DNA of 64,000 nucleotides from assembly GCA_021806045.1 (NCBI GenBank), contig JAJZDI010000016.1:1-64000 (forward strand), written 5' to 3'. This stretch comes from Actinomycetes bacterium. GTDB taxonomy: Bacteria > Actinomycetota > Acidimicrobiia > Acidimicrobiales > RAAP-2. Under the pieces are notes generated by a model. That model worked only from the letters and a program-made list of their open reading frames with translations. It had not been told where the DNA came from and made no database searches. The translations under genes were made by a program, and so were the position numbers. Shown piece by piece: positions 1,810-23,496 of this stretch (positions are counted from its first letter, which is position 1; every line of letters starts with the position of its first letter).

Positions 1810-4497
1810 CTACATGACAGCGGGAGGACCTCGCGACACAGGCACGTCGGAACGGGATCCTGCTGTGACCTCCGACGACGGCGCCAGGTAGCCACCCAAC
1901 GGGTCCGGACCATGGCCTGTTCCACGTCGCGCAGGTCGCCGGCGCCGCCAGTACCACACCACGACGGAGGCTCCCAGCACGATCGACGCCGTCAAGCTCA
2001 CCATCCAACCCATCCGGAAGCTGCTCGGGTCGTATGTGAACACGACGCGGTCGGTTCCGGCATGCACGCTCACTCCGCGCAGCAGATAATCCACGCGCCG
2101 GATGGGCTCGAGCCGCCCATTGACTGTCACCTTCCATCCGGGATAGTACGTATCAGAGAGAACGAGCAGCGAATCCCGATCCGTCTGAACGCTGATCGCC
2201 ACCCGCTCAGCCGTGTAGTCGGTTATGCGAGCGCTACCGGGGATGCCGGGAACTGCCTGTGACGTCGACAACCCGGGCAACCGGTGCTCAGTGATCACTT
2301 CTCGTCGTGCATCGAATCCCGCCGCCCCCAGTGCGGTCAGCGCTTGGCCACCACTGGTCACGACTCTCTGTCCGGCCACTACCCATGCCCGCGGCAATGC
2401 ACCCGGATTGGCGTAAATAGTCGCGTCAGGACCGCTGTACACCACGGGCAGTTTCGGCTCGTTCAGCGGCTCATTCTTCTGTTCAAGGATGTCACGTACT
2501 CCGTACAAGGACAGCACCCTCATCGTGCTGGGTGACAATCCCGCTTCGATGGTGAGAGGAACCGACGGCGTGTTTTCAGGCAGAAGAGGGATCGGCGGAG
2601 ACACGTAGCGCCTCCACAGGTTGGAAAACCGGGTCACCACTGGGAGGTCGTAGCCGCGAAGATCGTACAGGCCATAGCGGAGGTTCACATCTGGCGGAAG
2701 CGGGTTCACCTTGTCGTACGGTGTCACCGCCACAAAACGGGCTGGTCGCTGCCGTTGAAGGAAACGGATCGCTCCGGTCACTGGTTGCACCGCATGAGAA
2801 GTGGGGATCGCAGGGTTATAACCCATACCCGCTTGGAAGAGATCCATCGCCACCAGAGCGAGACAAAGGAAAGCAAAAACTCCGCGTGGGATCTTTCCCC
2901 GGGAGCGGAACGCCAACAGGAGTACCGCGGCCCCCGCCACGGTGAGCCAGACGATCAAGGCGGCCAGGCGATCGATCGGTATCTCGTGTGGCGCATTGTG
3001 CAGGGGAGCGCGACCGAACAGCCAGGCGATGTCGACCGCCCGGCCGAGATAACGAAGGGACGTGCCGCTGGTAGCGGCAACGACCACGACGGGTAGGGCA
3101 AGAAGGCCCAGGGCCATCATTCCCATCTTCCGTGTCTGCCGCCGGTCTGGTCGTCGACGCAGAAGGTCGTCGAGGCCCCATCCAGCCAGGAGCGCGATAC
3201 AGAGAAGATAGATGATGGTCAGGCGGGTGAGGTAGGTCAGGTCGAGGACGGGCGTCTTACCCGCGATGCCGAAGAACGGCTGGATCCCGAGAACCACGAG
3301 CACACTCAGGATGCCAACAACTGCGACGACGATCCGCTCGACCCGACGGCGGAAGAGTGCGACGATCCCCAAGAAGAGCGGTAGAACGCCTGCATAGAAC
3401 GCGCTGACGATCACAAAACTACCGGGAAAGTAATTTGGCAAGAAGGCGGCGAATATGTACTGGGTCTGTACGTGCACTGCGGCCCGCGGACGGGCAGCAA
3501 GGTCATTTGAATGCCGGAGGAGCTCGAGGAAGGGCAGTATGGTGACCGCTGCGATTGCAGTTCCGATACTCAGGGAAATAATGAGTGCAATCACTGGTCG
3601 CGTCGCGGCGGATGTCACTGCCGTGAATCGGGTTCTCCATCCACGGCCTGCCGATCTCGCAGCAGCGACGACACCACCACCTTCACCCTGCATCAAGCGA
3701 AGGACAAAATACCCACCGACGGCTGCAATCGCGTAGACGCTCGACTCGGGCTCTCCCCCGAAGAACTGCAACGCCACGAGACTGGCCAGTGCTGCTCCCG
3801 GCAGAATACCTGGCTTGCGGACCAGCCGCTCGGTGGCCAGAAGCATCCAAGGGATGAGAGGGAATACATCGGTGAGGGGCCAGGGAATCCACGCAATCAT
3901 GAACAGCCCGAACCCAAACACGAGACCGGCAAGAAATGCACCCGCGATGCCCATCTTGAGGGCACGACCGAGCAGGTATGATCCGGTTGCTGCTACCACT
4001 ACCTTGAGTAACGCGATGACGCCCAGTGACCACCAGAATGGCAGAATGTATGCAGGGAGGTTGAATGGCGAGAAGATGGCGGACTGCATGTCGCCCAGGT
4101 AGGGCATCCCGCCCATGATGTAGGGATTCCAAAGTGGGATATGCGGCAGTTGGGATCTAGTGTATTGAAGGTAGGGCTCGAACACCGTAATGCCGTCCAC
4201 CAACTGCGGGTTGGACCCCCGCACTATTGGGGACATGCTGTAGGTCGGTACGCCATGAGGTATGGCCGTGTTCCACGGTGCCGCATTCCAAAGGTAGTCA
4301 GCCGCAGAGACAGTGTGTCCTGGGAGTAGGCCCGGCCAAAAAAAGACCACTCCGAGCAACACGTACGCCATGAAGACGGTGAGGCTTGCATGCCTCCGCA
4401 CCCACGCGAGGAGCGACGACTCCCCGCCTCTGCCACCGGTCGGGACGTCTCCGGTCGGTTCACGCGGCAGCGGCGTCGACCCGGCGTCCTGGCGCAT
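1810..4497 (-). CDS. YfhO-like polytopic membrane protein
   Basis: An 895-residue integral membrane protein resembling the YfhO family, which in Gram-positive bacteria is linked to glycosylation of cell-wall polymers or lipoteichoic acids. A cytoplasmic N-terminus of about 35 residues is followed by roughly a dozen hydrophobic helices to about residue 560. Then comes a long extracytoplasmic beta-rich domain with RFVAVTPYDKV and a YYPGWKVTVNG stretch, a signature of the family's outer domain, and a final membrane helix near 845-865 before a basic tail. Loop residues near the first helices (DYLWNAAPW) fit a GT-C-like fold. Its A/T content at third positions is clearly higher than in downstream genes, suggesting foreign origin. 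Substrate is not predictable. Confidence 0.8.
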   Translation of the reverse strand: MRQDAGSTPLPREPTGDVPTGGRGGESSLLAWVRRHASLTVFMAYVLLGVVFFWPGLLPGHTVSAADYLWNAAPWNTAIPHGVPTYSMSPIVRGSNPQLVDGITVFEPYLQYTRSQLPHIPLWNPYIMGGMPYLGDMQSAIFSPFNLPAYILPFWWSLGVIALLKVVVAATGSYLLGRALKMGIAGAFLAGLVFGFGLFMIAWIPWPLTDVFPLIPWMLLATERLVRKPGILPGAALASLVALQFFGGEPESSVYAIAAVGGYFVLRLMQGEGGGVVAAARSAGRGWRTRFTAVTSAATRPVIALIISLSIGTAIAAVTILPFLELLRHSNDLAARPRAAVHVQTQYIFAAFLPNYFPGSFVIVSAFYAGVLPLFLGIVALFRRRVERIVVAVVGILSVLVVLGIQPFFGIAGKTPVLDLTYLTRLTIIYLLCIALLAGWGLDDLLRRRPDRRQTRKMGMMALGLLALPVVVVAATSGTSLRYLGRAVDIAWLFGRAPLHNAPHEIPIDRLAALIVWLTVAGAAVLLLAFRSRGKIPRGVFAFLCLALVAMDLFQAGMGYNPAIPTSHAVQPVTGAIRFLQRQRPARFVAVTPYDKVNPLPPDVNLRYGLYDLRGYDLPVVTRFSNLWRRYVSPPIPLLPENTPSVPLTIEAGLSPSTMRVLSLYGVRDILEQKNEPLNEPKLPVVYSGPDATIYANPGALPRAWVVAGQRVVTSGGQALTALGAAGFDARREVITEHRLPGLSTSQAVPGIPGSARITDYTAERVAISVQTDRDSLLVLSDTYYPGWKVTVNGRLEPIRRVDYLLRGVSVHAGTDRVVFTYDPSSFRMGWMVSLTASIVLGASVVVWYWRRRRPARRGTGHGPDPLGGYLAPSSEVTAGSRSDVPVSRGPPAVM

Positions 4498-16606: not shown

Positions 16607-16719
16607 GGGATGGGAGGTTACCGGGTTGTGACATTATTTACTACTAAATCTTCTACACTGGCGTCCGTGCGTGATCCCCACCTCCCGGTCCGGAACCACC
16701 TCGGTCGGGCGGTCCGGAC
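16607..16719. promoter_or_regulatory. AT-rich divergent promoter region
   Basis: The 113 bp between the leftward oxidoreductase and rightward SDR genes contain an abrupt A/T-rich island at 16628-16658 (TTTACTACTAAA is an imperfect palindrome) in otherwise very GC-rich DNA. A TAAATA element on the minus strand lies about 30 bases before the oxidoreductase start, suitable as a -10. An ACTAAA half resembles the operator halves at 19781 and 22418, but only weakly. Confidence 0.5.
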
Positions 16720-18180
16720 GTGAGCCGGACCGTCCTCGTCACCGGTGCCACCGGCTACGTCGGGGGGCGCCTCGTCCCAGCCCTGCTCGCCACCGGCGAC
16801 GTCACCGTGCGGTGCCTCGCCCGGACGCCGGAGAAGTTGGACGCCGCGCCGTGGCGCTCTGCGGTCGAGGTGGTGCGGGGCAGTGTCGGCGGCGACCTCA
16901 CCGACGCGCTCGACGGCGTCGACACCCTCGTCTACCTGGTCCATTCGATCGGCCAGGGGGAGGGGTGGGAGGCCCGGGAGCTCGACCACGCACGGAACGT
17001 GGCCGACCATGCACGGCGGGCCGGGGTCCGCCGCATCGTCTTCCTCGGGGGCCTCGGGCGGGACGGGGACGACCTGTCCGTCCACCTGCGCAGCCGACAC
17101 GAGGTCGGGCGGCTGCTGGCCGGCAGCGGCGTCCCGACGGTCGAGCTGCGCGCCGGCGTCATCATCGGATCGGGGTCCGCCAGCTTCGAGATGCTCCGGT
17201 ACCTGGTCGAGATGCTTTCTGTCATGGTCACCCCACGCTGGGTGTCCACCCGCTGCCAACCGATCGCCATCGCCGACGTCGTGGCCACCCTGGTCCGGGC
17301 CGTGACCCTGGCCGACGTCCCCTCCGGCGTGTACGAGATCGGCGGGCCGGACGTCGTCTCCTACGCCGAGATGATGGACGCCTACGCCCGGGCCGCCGGC
17401 CTGCCCAGGCGACGGGTGATCTCCGTCCCGTTCCTTTCCCCCGGGCTGTCGTCGCACTGGGTCGGCCTGGTCACGCCGGTCCCGGTGCCGCTGGCCCGCG
17501 AGCTGGTGGAGAGCCTGGTGAACGAGGTCGTGGTCGACGACGACCGGGCGGCACGGACCTTCGGCGTCGACGCCATGGGCCTGGGTGAGGCGATCGAGCG
17601 GGCCCTCGCCGCCGTCGAACGGGGCAACGTGCCCACCGCGTGGTCCGACGCCGACCTCGTCCACTTCGCGCCGGTGGCTACCGACCCGGCGTGGTCGGGC
17701 GGAACCATCGTCGAAGACGTGCGCCGGGCGACGACGGCGGCGTCACCCGAAGCCGTCTACCGGACCATCGCCGCCATCGGCGGCGACCGCGGCTGGTACA
17801 GCGGGGAGCTCCTGTGGCGGATCCGGGGCATCCTCGACAAGCTCATCGGCGGGCCCGGGCTGCGCACCGGCCGGAAGGCGACCATCGCCGTGGGCGACGC
17901 CATCGACTTCTGGCGGGTCGAGGAGCTGGTCTCGGACCGGAGGATCCGCCTGCGGGCCGAGATGGTGCTGCCCGGCCAGGCCTGGCTCACGTGGGACCTC
18001 GAACCGTCGGACGGTGGGACCGTGGTGACCCAGTCGGCCACCTTCCGCCCGAAGGGCCTGTGGGGCCGCGCCTACTGGTACGGGGTGGCGCCCTTCCACC
18101 GCTTCGTCTTCCCCGGCATGCTGGCCGGGATCCTGGCCGACGCTGCCGGCCGGGCGCCGTCACCTCCGGATCCGGGCTGA
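16720..18180 (+). CDS. YbjT-like NAD(P)-binding SDR protein with DUF2867 domain
   Basis: A 486-residue two-domain protein, close to the usual length of YbjT-type proteins. Residues 1-290 form an atypical SDR Rossmann domain beginning VLVTGATGYVGGR. Residues about 310-480 are DUF2867, with the RVEELVSDRRIRLRAEM and WGRAYWYGVAPFH blocks. The GTG at 16720 puts the Rossmann strand at residue 3. The biochemical reaction is not established for the family. It is divergent from the oxidoreductase/fasciclin/sigma operon and shares its 113-bp promoter region. In other bacteria such SDR proteins accompany FAD oxidoreductases and ECF sigma factors in photo-oxidative stress clusters, which supports a stress role here. 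Confidence 0.85.
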   Translation: MSRTVLVTGATGYVGGRLVPALLATGDVTVRCLARTPEKLDAAPWRSAVEVVRGSVGGDLTDALDGVDTLVYLVHSIGQGEGWEARELDHARNVADHARRAGVRRIVFLGGLGRDGDDLSVHLRSRHEVGRLLAGSGVPTVELRAGVIIGSGSASFEMLRYLVEMLSVMVTPRWVSTRCQPIAIADVVATLVRAVTLADVPSGVYEIGGPDVVSYAEMMDAYARAAGLPRRRVISVPFLSPGLSSHWVGLVTPVPVPLARELVESLVNEVVVDDDRAARTFGVDAMGLGEAIERALAAVERGNVPTAWSDADLVHFAPVATDPAWSGGTIVEDVRRATTAASPEAVYRTIAAIGGDRGWYSGELLWRIRGILDKLIGGPGLRTGRKATIAVGDAIDFWRVEELVSDRRIRLRAEMVLPGQAWLTWDLEPSDGGTVVTQSATFRPKGLWGRAYWYGVAPFHRFVFPGMLAGILADAAGRAPSPPDPG

Positions 18181-18200
18181 CGCCGGGCCGGGTGGCACCA

Positions 18201-18218
18201 GGTAGCAGTTCTGCTACC
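18201..18218. promoter_or_regulatory. Perfect palindromic operator of toxin-antitoxin pair
   Basis: GGTAGCAGTTCTGCTACC has 8-bp perfect arms around TT and ends one base before a GTG codon (18219). Autoregulatory VapB or VapBC complexes bind such inverted repeats. Binding here would cover the start point of transcription. Confidence 0.65.
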
Positions 18219-18227
18219 GTGGCAAAC

Positions 18228-18473
18228 GTGGCAGACATCCCACAGAAGGAGCTGCGAAACCGCGTGAGCGAGGTGCTCCGCCGGGCCGAGGCCGGCGAGA
18301 CCCTCACCGTGACGGTCGCCGGTCGTGCGGTCGCCGAGCTCGGCCCGACGCACCGCCGCCGCTGGGTCAGCGGTGCGGCGCTCGCAGGCATCTGGCGCGG
18401 AACGGCACCGCGGGGCCTCGATGCCGACCTGGAGCGATTCCCGGCGAGCCTCGTAGACCCATACGGACCGTGA
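18228..18473 (+). CDS. vapB: Phd/YefM-type antitoxin (VapB)
   Basis: An 81-residue antitoxin; the frame begins with a GTG at 18228 (ADIPQKELRNRVSEVLRRAE), while an in-frame GTG at 18219 would add three residues. The N-terminal 50 residues match the Phd/YefM DNA-binding fold, with the GETLTVTVAGRAVAEL strand turn. The C-terminal 30 residues are the variable toxin-neutralising tail. There is no clear Shine-Dalgarno sequence and the palindrome touches the start, so a leaderless or near-leaderless transcript is likely. The stop codon overlaps the toxin's GTG by 4 bp. It would neutralise the PIN toxin and, with it, repress this promoter. Confidence 0.85.
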   Translation: MADIPQKELRNRVSEVLRRAEAGETLTVTVAGRAVAELGPTHRRRWVSGAALAGIWRGTAPRGLDADLERFPASLVDPYGP

Positions 18474-18859
18474 GGGTCCTACTCGACACGTCGGTCCTCA
18501 TCGCAGAGGTCCCGCCGCCCGACGACGTCGAGGCCGCCATCAGTGTGGTCTCGGTGACGGAGCTGCACTTCGGTGTTCTTGTCGCCGACGACGATGACGA
18601 GCGGGCGCGTCGTACCGCCCGGCTCGCGGCTGTGGAGGCGACGTTCGACCCGCTACCGGTGACGGTCGAGGTCGCCCGCGTCTGGGGCCAACTTGCCGCC
18701 GCGGTGGCCCGACGCGGCGGCAACCCGAGACGGCGCCAGATCGATCTCGCCATCGCCGCCACCGCACACGTGGAGGGCGTGCCGCTTCTGACAGAGGACG
18801 TCGGCGACTTCCGCATCATCAACGACCTGGTCGACGCCCGCAGGCTGTCCGATCGGTAG
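18470..18859 (+). CDS. vapC: VapC-type PIN-domain ribonuclease toxin
   Basis: A 129-residue PIN-domain protein, the normal VapC size. The acidic catalytic residues are visible: Asp6 in LLDTSVLI, Glu31 in SVTELHFG, Asp92 in IDLAIAATAH and Asp110/Asp113 near the end (LLTEDVGDF). VapC toxins cut specific tRNA or rRNA sites. The GTG at 18470 overlaps the antitoxin stop, the classic coupled arrangement. It lies between a sigma-factor locus and the nitrosative-stress-like locus with no other mobile features, so it may be a resident or an old insertion. Target RNA cannot be predicted. Confidence 0.92.
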   Translation: MRVLLDTSVLIAEVPPPDDVEAAISVVSVTELHFGVLVADDDDERARRTARLAAVEATFDPLPVTVEVARVWGQLAAAVARRGGNPRRRQIDLAIAATAHVEGVPLLTEDVGDFRIINDLVDARRLSDR

Positions 18860-18999: not shown

Positions 19000-19095
19000 T
19001 CACGGGTGGCAGTCGACGAGCACCCGGTGGGTACCGGGCGGGCGGGGCACGTGGTCGTAGACCCGCACCACCGTCACCCCGGGCCCGGGCCGCAC
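19000..19095 (-). pseudogene. 31-residue frame, possible DUF488 fragment
   Basis: A GTG at 19095, 10 bp after the DUF59 stop, opens a 31-residue frame whose VTVVRVYDHV and RVLVD segments resemble the opening of DUF488 proteins (VYD...RVLVDRLWPRG). The frame stops exactly where the family's WPRG element should be, and the sequence downstream has some residual coding look (APQLRW) in another frame. It is either a decayed DUF488 gene at the end of this operon or a chance frame. Confidence is low. Confidence 0.33.
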
Positions 19096-19105
19096 CTCCG
19101 CGCCT

Positions 19106-19513
19106 TCAGCCCGAGGTGAACCCCAGGGCTGCGGCCGCCTCAGCCGTGATCATGGCCGGGCTCCAGGGCGGATCCCACACCAGGTCCACCCGGACGTCGG
19201 TCCCTGGCAACGCCGCTTCCACCGCCATCCGGGCCATCACCGGCAGGCTCTCGCTGGCCGGGCACCCCGGTGTGGTGAGGGTCATGGTCACCTCGACGGC
19301 GCCATTCTCGTTGTGGACGTCGTACACCAGGCCGAGTGCGACGAGGTCGAGTCCCAGCTCGGGGTCGCACACGGTTGCCAGCGCATCCCACGCCGCGGCC
19401 GCCGGCCCGCCGGCCGCCCGGCCCGGTGCCACGACCGCCGTTTCCGGGGCAGCCGCGGCACCCGACGGCGCCTGGAAGCGCTCCCGGCGGCGGATGTGCG
19501 CCAACGGGATCAC
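19106..19513 (-). CDS. MIP18/DUF59-family Fe-S assembly protein
   Basis: A 135-residue protein with an Ala-rich N-terminus of about 40 residues and then a DUF59 domain. The conserved CDPELGLDLVALGLVYDV opening, the TTPGCP active-site loop holding the key cysteine, and the VDLVWDPPWSPAMIT end are all present. Relatives include SufT and PaaD, which act in iron-sulfur cluster maturation. It overlaps the DUF2249 gene by 4 bp (19510-19513), so the two are co-translated. The linked hemerythrin and SufR-like genes support a role in rebuilding clusters after oxidative or nitrosative damage. That role is inferred from context. Confidence 0.88.
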   Translation of the reverse strand: MIPLAHIRRRERFQAPSGAAAAPETAVVAPGRAAGGPAAAAWDALATVCDPELGLDLVALGLVYDVHNENGAVEVTMTLTTPGCPASESLPVMARMAVEAALPGTDVRVDLVWDPPWSPAMITAEAAAALGFTSG

Positions 19514-19731
19514 GACTGCCTCCGGAACGTGACCTGCCAGTCGCCACCACCCAGCTCCACCGCCTCGTAGGAGAAGCCCTGCTCCGACAGGAGCCCCTCG
19601 AGCGGTACCGGCTCGAACGGGGCCAGCACGACCAGGTCCTCCTTGTCACCCAGGCCGTCGAGTGCAGTCATGATCATCCCGAACGGCTCGTCACCTGCTG
19701 CCAGGACGGGCCGTGCATCGACGGTCGCCAT
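19510..19731 (-). CDS. DUF2249 domain protein
   Basis: A 73-residue stand-alone DUF2249 domain, TusA-like in fold but without the usual Cys-Pro active site. It shows the ARPVLAAGDEPFGMIMTALD opening, the LVVLAPFEPVPLEGLL core and the closing DWQVTFRR strand. Stand-alone and hemerythrin-fused DUF2249 proteins are frequent in denitrification and nitric-oxide response clusters; the biochemical role is not established. It is the first gene of a leftward operon with DUF59, divergent from the polytopic membrane protein, with a palindrome in the shared 73-bp promoter. Confidence 0.88.
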   Translation of the reverse strand: MATVDARPVLAAGDEPFGMIMTALDGLGDKEDLVVLAPFEPVPLEGLLSEQGFSYEAVELGGGDWQVTFRRQS

Positions 19732-19780
19732 CGGACCACCTCCTCGCTCGTGGCCGGCGGGTGCCGGTCTCGATTGTTCT

Positions 19781-19796
19781 TCTACTTTTTACTAGA
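19781..19796. promoter_or_regulatory. Palindromic operator, site B (TCTACT-N4-ACTAGA)
   Basis: TCTACTTTTTACTAGA has the same 6-4-6 geometry as the perfect site at 22418-22433 with one mismatch in the left arm. It sits between the DUF2249 gene (start 19731) and the membrane protein (start 19805) in an A/T-rich block also containing TTATAT. A regulator bound here could control both directions. Confidence 0.6.
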
Positions 19797-19804
19797 GTTA
19801 TATC

Positions 19805-21247
19805 ATGCACGATCGTGGAGGTCACGACCCCGGCGGCACCACAGCAGCCACCCCGGCACCCGTCTCTCCCCCTACCCCGGCACCAGCCCCGCCACCCACA
19901 TCGGCACTGTGGGTGGGGCGCCCCCCCGGGGTCCCCGGCACCGTGCCCCCGCCGGCCGTTCCATTGGCGTTCCTCGGGGCAGCCGCCGCCGGCCTCGTCG
20001 CCTGCGGGATCACCCTGGCCTGGGCCAGCGGGGCGTCGAGCGTCGACCCGACGGCCGATCCCGTGGTTGCCGCCGCCCACTTCGGCATGTTGGCCACGCT
20101 CTCCATGGGTGTCCTCGGCGCCCTCTTCCAGTTCACGCCGGTGGTGACCCGGCGCCCGCTCCGCTCCCTCCGCCTGGCGTGGATCACGTTCGCCACGTGG
20201 CTGCCGGCGTCGTGGCTCCTCCCCCTCGGGTTCGCCACCCGCCACGAAGTACTGGTCGAAGCGGGCGGCGCCCTGGCCGCCCTGGCCGTGGCCGCCGCCG
20301 TCGCCACCTTGTCCGCGCCCCTGGCCGGAGCAGGCGGGGACGTCGTGGCTGCGGGCATCCGGGCTGCCGTGGCCGGGTTCGTGGTCACCGCCTGCTTCGG
20401 CGTCGTCTACGTCGCCGACCGGCGAGCTGCCTGGTTCGACCTGCCCGGCCACGTCGTGATGGCCCATGCCTCCGTGGGACTGCTGGCCTGGCTGGGCCTC
20501 ACCTACGTGAGCGTCGCCGAGAAGTTGTGGCCGATGTTCTTCCTCGCACACGTCCCCGGCCGGCGCCGTGCCGGTCGCATCGCGGTGACCGCGGTGCCCA
20601 CCGGCGTGGTGCTGCTCTCCCCCGGCCTGTTGACCAACACGGCCTGGCTGGCCTGGACCGGTGCCGCGGTGGTGGCCGTCGGCCTGGCAGCCCACCTCAC
20701 GTCGCTGGTCGTCACCCTCCGGCACCGGCGCCGGTCGATCGACCTCCACGCCGCCTTCGTCGTCACCGCAGCGCTCTCGCTCATGGCCGGGGTGGGGCTG
20801 GCGCTGGCCGGAGCGGTGGTCCTCCGCTCCGACCACCACGCGGGCGTCGCCCTGGTGGCCGCCTCGGTCGCCGCCGTGGGCGGCTGGCTGCTCGAGGCGC
20901 TGGTCGGCCACGTCCACAAGGTGGTCCCCTTCGTCGAGTGGTCCTCCTTGCGTGCCCGGGGCGTGTCGTATGGCCCCACGGGCCGGCAGATCATGTTCGC
21001 CGACCTCTACCGCCACAGCTGGGCCGCCGCCACCTACGTCCTGGTCACCGTTGGCATCACCACCGTGACGGCCGGGCTGGCCACCTCCGAGGCGGCCATC
21101 GTGGCCGCCGGTGGCTGGGTCCTCGCCGCCACCGGGATCGTGACCGCGGCCAACTTCTGGACGACGGCCCGCCGGCTCGGCCGGTCGGCACCGCCGGTGG
21201 GCACCGATCGGCCGGCGGCTGCGCCGGTGACGGGGCAGCCGGCCTGA
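19805..21247 (+). CDS. Polytopic membrane protein with conserved histidines (heme-copper oxidase/NnrS-like)
   Basis: A 480-residue protein with a Pro/Ala-rich N-terminal stretch of about 50 residues and about twelve membrane helices. Histidines sit within or next to helices (AAAHFGMLAT, GHVVMAHASVG, FFLAH, LVGHVHKV), as in heme-binding proteins such as NnrS or the CcoN-like subunit I superfamily, but the complete copper-site motif of true oxidases is not obvious. A nitric-oxide- or heme-related role fits the flanking hemerythrin and DUF2249 genes and is inference. ATG 19805 is 8 bp after the operator; a TTATAT element just before the ATG raises the possibility that translation starts further in, with the low-complexity N-terminus untranslated. 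Confidence 0.6.
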   Translation: MHDRGGHDPGGTTAATPAPVSPPTPAPAPPPTSALWVGRPPGVPGTVPPPAVPLAFLGAAAAGLVACGITLAWASGASSVDPTADPVVAAAHFGMLATLSMGVLGALFQFTPVVTRRPLRSLRLAWITFATWLPASWLLPLGFATRHEVLVEAGGALAALAVAAAVATLSAPLAGAGGDVVAAGIRAAVAGFVVTACFGVVYVADRRAAWFDLPGHVVMAHASVGLLAWLGLTYVSVAEKLWPMFFLAHVPGRRRAGRIAVTAVPTGVVLLSPGLLTNTAWLAWTGAAVVAVGLAAHLTSLVVTLRHRRRSIDLHAAFVVTAALSLMAGVGLALAGAVVLRSDHHAGVALVAASVAAVGGWLLEALVGHVHKVVPFVEWSSLRARGVSYGPTGRQIMFADLYRHSWAAATYVLVTVGITTVTAGLATSEAAIVAAGGWVLAATGIVTAANFWTTARRLGRSAPPVGTDRPAAAPVTGQPA

Positions 21248-21300
21248 AGGGCAGCAGCGGCACCGCCTGGCGCCCGGAGGTGCCCTCAGGCGCCCGGAGG

Positions 21301-22383
21301 TCAGACTGCGGCGGTGGCCACCGACCTGCTGATGTGCACCCGCCACTCGGTGGGGCCGGCCAGGTCGTACGACCAGGTGAAGGTGCCGGGGTGCTCGGCC
21401 TCGAGCTGGTAACGGAGCGGGCGGGGGTCGTGGTCGTTCACCAGCACGAACCCCTGACCGGGCGTCAGCGCATCGAAGGCGGCGAAGATCGTCTCATGGC
21501 GGGCCGCCGGCACCAGGGAGCGGACGTCGAGGACGAGGTCGCCCTCGCTCCGGTCGTCGCCCCCACTCCCGTCCCCGTTCTCGCTCCCGCCGTTCCGGGT
21601 CCGGAACGCCACCGGCTCAGAGGAGGCGAGGCGGACCAGCCGGTGGAGGGCGGGACCGACCCGGGCGGCCAGCTCCGGCGAGGGGGCGCGCAGCACCGAC
21701 CACGCCGCTGCCGCCAACCGGCAGGCCTGATCACCCCGGCCGGCCCGGGCCAGGTCGGTGGTCGCCTCGAGGAGGAGCCGGAGGAGTACCGGCGCCGGAT
21801 CGGACCCGGAACCGGCTGTTCCCTCGGCACGACCACCGGAACCGTCTGCTTCCCCCACGTCTTCGGCGGCGGCACTCGCCCCCCGGATCTCCTCGATCTC
21901 GTCGTGCATCGCCCCGAGCAGGGTGGCGAGCGAGGCCCCGCTGTCGGCGACCAGGGCGGGCAGCACGATCTCGTTCTCGGCTCGGACGTGGGCACGGAAC
22001 AGGTCGGCCACATCGGTGGCGGCCGCAGCGGCGCGGGGCCCGTCGGTCGCCTGGGCCAGCGAGTCGACGAGGGCCGCCAGTGTGCCGTGCTCGACGGTCA
22101 TGGCCGCCACCGTCTCCGCCAGCTCGGCGCGCTGGGCCGCCGCACGGTAGAGGGTGTGCTCCTCGGCACGGGCGTGCGGGAGCACCTCGTCGGCCACGTA
22201 CCCGACCAGGTCGGCCACGGCCACCTCCCACTGCCCGCCACGCTCCACCGCACCGGCCACCGCGCCGGCCCTGCGGGCCACCTGATCGTCGAGCTCGCGA
22301 TGGTGGGCGACGATGGCCGCCTCGGCCCGCAGCTCCTCGTCCGCTCCCTGCACCGTGCCGACCTGGGATCCGTCCGTCGTCAT
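21301..22383 (-). CDS. Hemerythrin-like domain fused to DUF2249
   Basis: A 360-residue fusion. Residues about 15-165 are an HHE hemerythrin four-helix bundle with likely di-iron ligands His28, His70, Glu74/75, His76, His99, His132 and Glu136. A variable linker follows (170-280), then a C-terminal DUF2249 domain from about 285 (LVLDVRSLVP...GFVLVNDHDPRPLRYQLE). Such proteins bind O2 or NO at the di-iron centre or help repair iron-sulfur clusters (YtfE-like); the exact role here is inferred. The gene has its own promoter carrying the perfect TCTAGT-N4-ACTAGA site at 22418, 35 bp before the start. Confidence 0.9.
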   Translation of the reverse strand: MTTDGSQVGTVQGADEELRAEAAIVAHHRELDDQVARRAGAVAGAVERGGQWEVAVADLVGYVADEVLPHARAEEHTLYRAAAQRAELAETVAAMTVEHGTLAALVDSLAQATDGPRAAAAATDVADLFRAHVRAENEIVLPALVADSGASLATLLGAMHDEIEEIRGASAAAEDVGEADGSGGRAEGTAGSGSDPAPVLLRLLLEATTDLARAGRGDQACRLAAAAWSVLRAPSPELAARVGPALHRLVRLASSEPVAFRTRNGGSENGDGSGGDDRSEGDLVLDVRSLVPAARHETIFAAFDALTPGQGFVLVNDHDPRPLRYQLEAEHPGTFTWSYDLAGPTEWRVHISRSVATAAV

Positions 22384-22417
22384 CCTGCCTCCTCACACCA
22401 CCGGTCAGTATCTTTGT

Positions 22418-22433
22418 TCTAGTGTTAACTAGA
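22418..22433. promoter_or_regulatory. Palindromic operator, site A (TCTAGT-N4-ACTAGA)
   Basis: TCTAGTGTTAACTAGA is a perfect 6-bp inverted repeat around GTTA, embedded in an A/T-rich island 35 bp upstream of the hemerythrin gene. CTAG is rare in such GC-rich DNA, so a second near-copy at 19781 in the same cluster is unlikely to be chance. Confidence 0.65.
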
Positions 22434-22596
22434 TTAATACTGCCGCACGGCGCGGTCCAGTGCCGGTGGGCGGGGACCGGGTCACGGGCCGCTTCAACCC
22501 GGCACACCCGGAGATCCACATGGGGGCCCGGCCACGGCCGCCCTGGCACCACGTGCCGGCCGGGCAGGGTAGGTCCGGGGGGACCCCCGGATCGGT

Positions 22597-23343
22597 TCAG
22601 GTCGCCGGGGTGGGACCGGCTTCCGGCACCCGGTGCACGACCAGCCGGCAGCCGGCGCGCCGGGCGTCGCGTGCGGCCAACCGGTCCACCTCGATCCCGC
22701 CCAGACCCTCGGCCATGCCTTCGGCCAGCCCGAGGTGGAGCTGGCACACGGTATCGGGGTCCACCGAGGCGACGTCGGCGAACGGGCACCGTCCGAGGAC
22801 GAAGTCGACCCGCCGACCGCGCACCATCCGTTCCGGGCGGAACCCCCGCTCGGCCAATTCGTCCTCGAGCACGTCCACCGGATCGCGCCCGTCCTCCACC
22901 GCAACCGCCCGTCGCCGGCCGTCGCGGCGCCCGACCTCCCGGGCGCCGACGCCATCGCGGACCGACTCGCTCAGCAGCCGGGCCAGCCACGCATAGGCCC
23001 CGGGCGTCCCCCAGCTTCCCGCCACCTCGGGGTGGAGGCGGTAGAGGAGGCGCGGCCGGCCCGGTCGCGACCGGACCTCGGGCTCCTCCACCACCAGCCC
23101 TGCGTCACGCAGTACGGCCAGGTGCTGGCGGACGGCGTTGTGGTTGAGCCCGACCAGGTCGGTCAGCTCCTGGACCCCCACCGGACGCCCGGCGTCCACG
23201 ATGTAGCGGAACAGGCGGTGACGGGTCGGGTCGCCGAGGGCGCGGCCCTGCTGGCGCACCTCGTCGTTCTCGGCGGTCGCCCCGCCGGCGCCCGACCGGT
23301 GTGCGGCGATCCCGTTGCTCCCATCCTGAGAAGGGGTCATCAA
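22597..23343 (-). CDS. SufR-like winged-helix regulator with candidate Fe-S ligands
   Basis: A 248-residue regulator. An ArsR/DeoR-type winged helix spans about 35-105 (LTDLVGLNHNAVRQHLAVLRDAG recognition helix, then GRPRLLYRL wing). The C-terminal half has a CPF...VC..H signature: Cys186, Cys200 and His203, then Cys232. Cyanobacterial and actinobacterial SufR proteins use three similarly spaced cysteines to hold an iron-sulfur cluster that controls DNA binding. A complete TCTAGT half-site lies 3 bp before the ATG (23346-23351), suggesting autoregulation. It is the obvious candidate to control the hemerythrin, DUF2249-DUF59 and membrane-protein promoters. Cluster binding and ligand (NO, O2 or apo state) are inferred. 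Confidence 0.82.
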   Translation of the reverse strand: MMTPSQDGSNGIAAHRSGAGGATAENDEVRQQGRALGDPTRHRLFRYIVDAGRPVGVQELTDLVGLNHNAVRQHLAVLRDAGLVVEEPEVRSRPGRPRLLYRLHPEVAGSWGTPGAYAWLARLLSESVRDGVGAREVGRRDGRRRAVAVEDGRDPVDVLEDELAERGFRPERMVRGRRVDFVLGRCPFADVASVDPDTVCQLHLGLAEGMAEGLGGIEVDRLAARDARRAGCRLVVHRVPEAGPTPAT

Positions 23344-23345
23344 CT

Positions 23346-23351
23346 TCTAGT
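23346..23351. promoter_or_regulatory. Candidate operator half-site
   Basis: TCTAGT directly upstream of the regulator start matches one arm of sites A and B; the opposite arm is only 2 of 6. Weak on its own. Confidence 0.3.
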
Positions 23352-23496
23352 CTATGGCTGAATTACGCCAGCAATGGGCACGCCGGCCACACCCGGCACC
23401 GCCTCGGAGGTGGCACGGCCATCACCCGGGGGATGGCGCACCCGCCGGTACGATCCGCTGCGGGGCGCCGTGACACCCCCTCCCTACCGTTCGGTC

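Follow-up and report, generated by a model that had tools for sequence, protein, structure and literature searches.

The present study analyzes a compact gene cluster, and the palindromes in its promoters, within a window of 64,000 nucleotides (positions 1 to 64,000 of contig JAJZDI010000016.1, assembly GCA_021806045.1) from a bacterium of the Acidimicrobiales. The cluster runs from a DUF59 gene of Fe-S assembly type (19106..19513, minus strand; PF01883, 5.6e-20) and a single-domain DUF2249 gene (19510..19731, minus strand, 73 amino acids; PF10006, 1.3e-15), through a gene for a membrane protein of 480 amino acids and 12 helices, here called MEM (19805..21247, plus strand), to a hemerythrin (HHE)-DUF2249 fusion (21301..22383, minus strand, 360 amino acids; PF01814, 1.4e-15, and PF10006, 1.5e-28) and a regulator, here called REG (22597..23343, minus strand). 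The DUF59 frame and the DUF2249 stop share 4 bases, so the two genes are probably co-transcribed, and the pair diverges from the MEM gene with one palindrome common to both sides. Against the SUF_assoc model the DUF59 protein scored 85.4 bits, under the cut-off of 143.4. An original prediction, made from the letters of the window alone, had called the DUF59, DUF2249 and hemerythrin-DUF2249 domains, which Pfam bears out, and had proposed that the genes share a palindromic operator as a self-contained nitric oxide (NO)/Fe-S regulon with a SufR-like repressor. Patterns reported below leave almost no doubt that the regulon is real, while its regulator, its extent and its signal are better described in other terms.

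Two 16-letter palindromes, TCTACTTTTTACTAGA at 19781-19796 and TCTAGTGTTAACTAGA at 22418-22433, are present where they had been predicted. Each lies within an 18-letter site: operator 1 (19780..19797, TTCTACTTTTTACTAGAG) between the divergent DUF2249 and MEM genes, and operator 2 (22417..22434, TTCTAGTGTTAACTAGAT) in the promoter region of the hemerythrin-DUF2249 gene. CTAG is indeed rare, with 7 occurrences in the 64 kb (71.5% GC), four of them within the two palindromes and a half-site that had been noticed at the regulator start. When the window was scanned with a position weight matrix (30 bp, symmetrised, built from relatives with the own genus excluded), the ranking was 22411 (37.4, operator 2), 19774 (35.1, operator 1) and 23339 (16.0), with a fourth hit at 5.3; on 60 Markov-random windows the best score was 9.5. 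The third-ranked hit is operator 3 (23345..23362, TTCTAGTCTATGGCTGAA), positioned at the regulator start as for autoregulation, and its rank indicates that the supposed half-site is real but degenerate. It spans the full length of the operator, with degeneracy confined to one arm, and its counterpart in the sister species (TTCTGCCATAGACTAGAA, gene strand) is a somewhat better copy. In the window REG, hemerythrin-DUF2249, MEM and DUF2249-DUF59 each start 10-57 bp from the centre of an operator, and a sigma-70 promoter scan of the region found no promoter.

With just two strong sites in the window, and with A/T-rich promoters being alike in GC-rich DNA, an alternative explanation could be chance palindromes in promoter spacers. 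At up to three mismatches the window held 4 matches (the two sites on both strands) against 0.40 expected by chance, and none of 100 shuffles reached 4. Random occurrence of the palindrome was also sought genome-wide: the TCTANTNNNNANTAGA pattern was found at two places in the whole genome (3.10 Mb in 43 contigs, 97.5% complete), both of them the window sites, and a control pattern at none. Relatives were sampled in two ways, by a survey of 61 genomes for MEM, in which 15 (the own genome counted) carried a strong match and one more a weak match, and by searching 84,980 species genomes with an alignment of the regulator, which yielded 80 retained loci. Allowing one mismatch at most, the palindrome was present in 13 of 15 MEM-bearing genomes and in none of 15 lacking MEM. 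Across 1.38 Mb of relatives the profile gave 240 matches at a score of at least 14, and the reversed profile, used as control, gave 0. The consensus is TTCTAGTnnnnACTAGAA with A/T flanks, an 18-letter palindrome whose full profile, TTnTTCTAGTnTAnACTAGAAnAA, has conserved flanks and a conserved centre, neither of which was used in site selection. Upstream of the regulator the 18-mer was found with up to three mismatches in 64 of the 80 loci, compared with about 0.1% of shuffled upstream sequences. Chance is in effect refuted by this conservation at orthologous promoters in dozens of genomes, by whole-genome uniqueness and by the absence of control hits, and the palindrome can be taken as the shared operator of one regulon.

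Families of site-adjoining genes were assigned by Pfam, and some loci represent one genome fetched twice, so the counts per gene are partly non-independent. In relatives the profile sites most often adjoined the regulator (62), hemerythrin-DUF2249 (43, in 42 loci), MEM (40) and DUF2249 (27), and most MEM-bearing loci carried the same gene set as the window. Further sites lay beside genes for a 1-Cys peroxiredoxin (7 loci), an FAD/NAD(P)H (flavin) reductase (6), a small protein (7), a small membrane protein (about 6 rows) and CMD/AhpD-like proteins (3). The operator was found upstream of narG in four rows that represent three independent loci (G014, L194 and L225; L061 and L155 mark one location). 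In one genome (G003, L106) it lies before an operon in which hemerythrin-DUF2249 comes first, overlapping sufB, and sufB-sufC-sufD follow, and in another (G021, L064) a fragment of the fusion lies before the same three genes. The own-genome search relied on pattern searches, reaching sites with up to three mismatches outside the fetched regions, and at that tolerance it returned further sites that were mostly poor. Two were strong: C28:47462 (L053 6457-6486, score 28.6), ahead of an NHL-repeat gene that neighbours one for an AlkA-type glycosylase, and C36:138463 (L054 4457-4486, score 26.7), before a CMD/AhpD-like gene, a kind of site found again in relatives. Because the operator stands before other genes in relatives and on these two contigs of the same genome, the locus is not self-contained, and that part of the original prediction does not hold. 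A candidate site before ctaE-qcrCAB (C33:82184, TTCTAGTTTTTAGCCGA) was attractive, as the product would be an NO-inhibited oxidase, but its profile score was only 2.5 and it was taken as chance. No clear operator site was seen around sufB in the own suf operon.

REG starts at an ATG at 23340, with an alternative TTG at 23343, and combines an ArsR/HTH_20 winged helix (HTH_20, 3.7e-10; HTH_5, 5.1e-6) with a C-terminal C-X13-C-X2-H...C putative sensor domain. From the site's inheritance together with the REG clade it is probably the protein that binds the operator. In a phylum-wide sample the operator adjoined six of seven REG homologs scoring above 200 bits, with one marginal case among 22 scoring below 140 bits. 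The palindrome could instead be bound by a different regulator of which REG is merely a target. One genome (G051) combines MEM and a good site with no detected REG ortholog, another (G434) has a REG homolog and no site, and both speak for that alternative. It is nevertheless improbable, as the site is co-inherited with the REG clade and keeps to the REG promoter across families and classes, and autoregulation usually shows as a site placed immediately ahead of the regulator's own gene. Some outlying homologs may be described here. In a genome of the same phylum and another family (L268, G151) a REG ortholog with an operator site outscores the window's own regulator against the alignment; that genome is placed outside the class, which reflects either horizontal transfer or misplacement. 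In another lineage of the phylum (L288, G216, 2187-3568) a distant REG homolog (84 bits) lies beside DUF2249 and MEM, with the palindrome absent from the stretch examined, and several other distant homologs adjoin DUF59 genes, suggesting that the gene partnership may predate the operator.

The three cysteines pointed out in the original prediction as Cys186, Cys200 and Cys232, counted from the TTG, correspond to C185, C199 and C231 counted from the ATG, and together with H202 they are invariant in 16 REG orthologs. In the wider family of 33 members the C-X13-C-X2-H motif and the last cysteine are kept in all but one, a fragmentary row. It is likely that REG is a repressor carrying an Fe-S cluster, as had been proposed, but the designation SufR was too specific. 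Against the SufR model (TIGR02702, a cyanobacterial model) REG scored 20.6 bits compared with a cut-off of 178.8, and it has C-X13-C, not C-X12-C. SufR of Mycobacterium tuberculosis (Rv1460) has C203, C216 and C244, with spacings of X12 and X27 (PMC6034842), and one relative (G024) carries beside sufBCD a separate SufR-type gene whose product has C-X12-C and Glu replacing the His. REG does resemble SufR in its winged helix, three C-terminal cysteines, probable autoregulation and, in some relatives, candidate Fe-S biogenesis targets, yet these spacings and the lack of the His in the G024 protein set it apart. On control of the suf operon the findings are mixed, with no clear operator at the own suf genes and the sufBCD operon of L106 under one. 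By its cysteine spacing and conserved His it is classed rather with ArnR of Corynebacterium glutamicum, in which Cys179, 193 and 223 (X13, X29) and a conserved His accompany a [4Fe-4S] cluster whose nitrosylation abolishes promoter binding, relieving repression of narKGHJI and hmp (PMC12343034). Both are actinobacterial proteins of similar length with a winged helix of MarR/ArsR type, C-X13-C, three conserved cysteines and a His near the cluster, and in relatives REG likewise neighbours or may control nitrate reductase. REG differs from ArnR in the gap to its last cysteine (X31 compared with X29), in its setting, as nar is absent from the own genome, and in its targets, which are hemerythrin-DUF2249, DUF59, DUF2249 and MEM, with sufBCD in relatives, hmp not being among the targets seen. 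By its ligand pattern, then, REG looks like an ArnR-type regulator, the likeness being drawn from published residue positions.

The window's MEM alone had no Pfam match, and two of its relatives matched the COX1 model weakly (best 3.3e-4). An AlphaFold model (predicted local distance difference test score 74.9, predicted template modelling score 0.76) has 12 helices in a fold like that of heme-copper oxidase subunit I, and the best solved matches were the cbb3 oxidase subunit CcoN (3mk7; Z 27.0, 379 residues, 3.6 A) and the NO reductase NorB (Z 25.9 and 23.8). No match was obtained when MEM was aligned with the own CtaD by hhalign or in a profile search of PDB sequences. NnrS is a less likely possibility; its Pfam model matched none of 16 MEM proteins, and the fold search indicated oxidase subunit I. 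Among 46 MEM proteins His92 in transmembrane helix (TM) 2, His249, His297 in TM8 and His369 in TM10 are invariant, and His216 and His371 are kept in 96% and 85%. Like CcoN and NorB, MEM thus has the subunit I fold with His in TM2 and TM10; unlike them, it has no sequence match to solved members, its His371 is less than fully conserved, and no His pair (CuB/FeB) is conserved in TM7 among the 46 proteins, with helices assigned by order and sequence and not by superposition. On this assignment by helix order MEM appears to keep some heme ligands without a normal CuB site, which makes it unlikely to be a canonical NO reductase. At residue 108, His is found in 44 of the 46 proteins and Phe in the window's genus.

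Taken together, these patterns favor, with reasonable confidence, a regulon for NO or Fe-S damage under an ArnR-type Fe-S repressor, of which the locus is the core. A REG dimer with a [4Fe-4S] cluster, held by three cysteines and a fourth ligand for which His202 is a candidate, would bind the palindrome and repress the locus genes and its own gene, and NO, or another attack on the cluster, would release it from DNA. The hemerythrin-DUF2249 protein would then contribute di-iron NO/O2 chemistry and Fe-S repair, the DUF59 protein Fe-S maturation, and the DUF2249 protein would act as a small partner, while MEM, probably a heme protein, would bind or consume NO or O2. The operator would further bring in nitrate reductase, SufBCD, peroxiredoxin and flavin reductase in relatives. 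Denitrification in haloarchaea is accompanied by induction of DUF2249 genes, and the family was earlier linked to heme-copper oxidases (PMC11218638). The DUF2249 proteins DrpA and DrpB are tied to nitrate respiration in Thermus (PMC6282519), a family resemblance to the locus; the Thermus proteins differ in having no hemerythrin fusion and another gene neighbourhood, and no such palindrome is mentioned in the text consulted.

That NO is the main signal we infer with somewhat better than even confidence. Bona fide narG was found in 6 of 15 MEM genomes and in none of 15 others (these being related genomes, the counts are non-independent), regulator orthologs lie beside narHJI in two genomes (G003 and G014), and REG homologs adjoin multicopper-oxidase/nirK-like genes in two more (G049 and G039), with nirK scores under the model cut-off. 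Besides the two discordant genomes and the lack of a conserved TM7 pair, several findings weigh against the favored reading as a whole. Five of the six bona fide narG genes have no clear site directly before them, model searches of the own genome found neither narG nor nirK, and in the COX1 family only ctaD exceeded the Pfam cut-off there, with no norB. Of the predicted NO/Fe-S regulon, then, the regulon itself stands, with NO as a signal deduced indirectly. With no such gene found, any NO would have to arise elsewhere or form chemically from nitrite under acidic conditions, and both sources are guesses on our part. Contigs C4, C13 and C43 of the own genome encode several molybdopterin oxidoreductases of about 900-1070 amino acids that are distantly NarG-like (about 80-90 bits) and do not reach the cut-off of the nitrate reductase model. 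The principal competing explanation is a general Fe-S or oxidative-stress regulon, in which O2, peroxide or a shortage of iron would strip the same repressor of its cluster, as with SufR, and NO would be one insult among several. This would account for the operon of hemerythrin-DUF2249 and sufBCD under the operator, the presence of DUF59 in the core, the sites at peroxiredoxin and CMD/AhpD-like genes and the lack of an NO-producing enzyme in the own genome by the narG, nirK and COX1-family searches. We regard it as rather unlikely, though clearly less so than a different binder, since narG is found under the operator and true narG is confined to genomes with the system, DUF2249 genes are induced during denitrification in haloarchaea, the sensor is of ArnR type and not SufR type, and a separate SufR-type gene lies beside sufBCD in G024.

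A bolder version of the NO and Fe-S damage reading, which we hold only tentatively, is that of an undescribed actinobacterial regulon where a new protein of heme-copper-oxidase fold, lacking a normal CuB site, is controlled by an ArnR-type repressor through an 18-bp operator. MEM would in that case be a heme-based NO sensor, scavenger or partial reductase, partnered by DUF2249 and hemerythrin-DUF2249. That would assign DUF2249 to the handling of NO or the repair of Fe-S clusters. DUF2249 and MEM are families without known function, and by sharing a conserved operator and an Fe-S-type repressor, in relatives also with narG and sufBCD, they acquire a role in defence against NO and in Fe-S repair that can be tested; a candidate operator is also now defined for an ArnR-type regulator outside Corynebacterium. 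A search of the literature found nothing useful on this regulon in Acidimicrobiaceae or on COG2345 regulators. Loci available from the lineage come almost entirely from uncultured bacteria: the 80 regulator loci are labelled mostly as metagenome-assembled genomes of Acidimicrobiaceae, Acidimicrobiales or Actinomycetes, and the one named isolate record is Acidiferrimicrobium sp. IK.

Two further observations concern the DNA beside the locus. At about 17987-18859 of the window a PIN-domain gene of VapC type (18470-18859, plus strand) has just upstream an apparent short frame for a VapB/Phd-like antitoxin. Another short palindrome, with a TTTACTACTAAA core, occupies intergenic positions 16626-16655 before an SDR/DUF2867 gene at 16720; it scores only 5 with the operator profile, and a similar copy occurs in the sister species (L056, near 5544).

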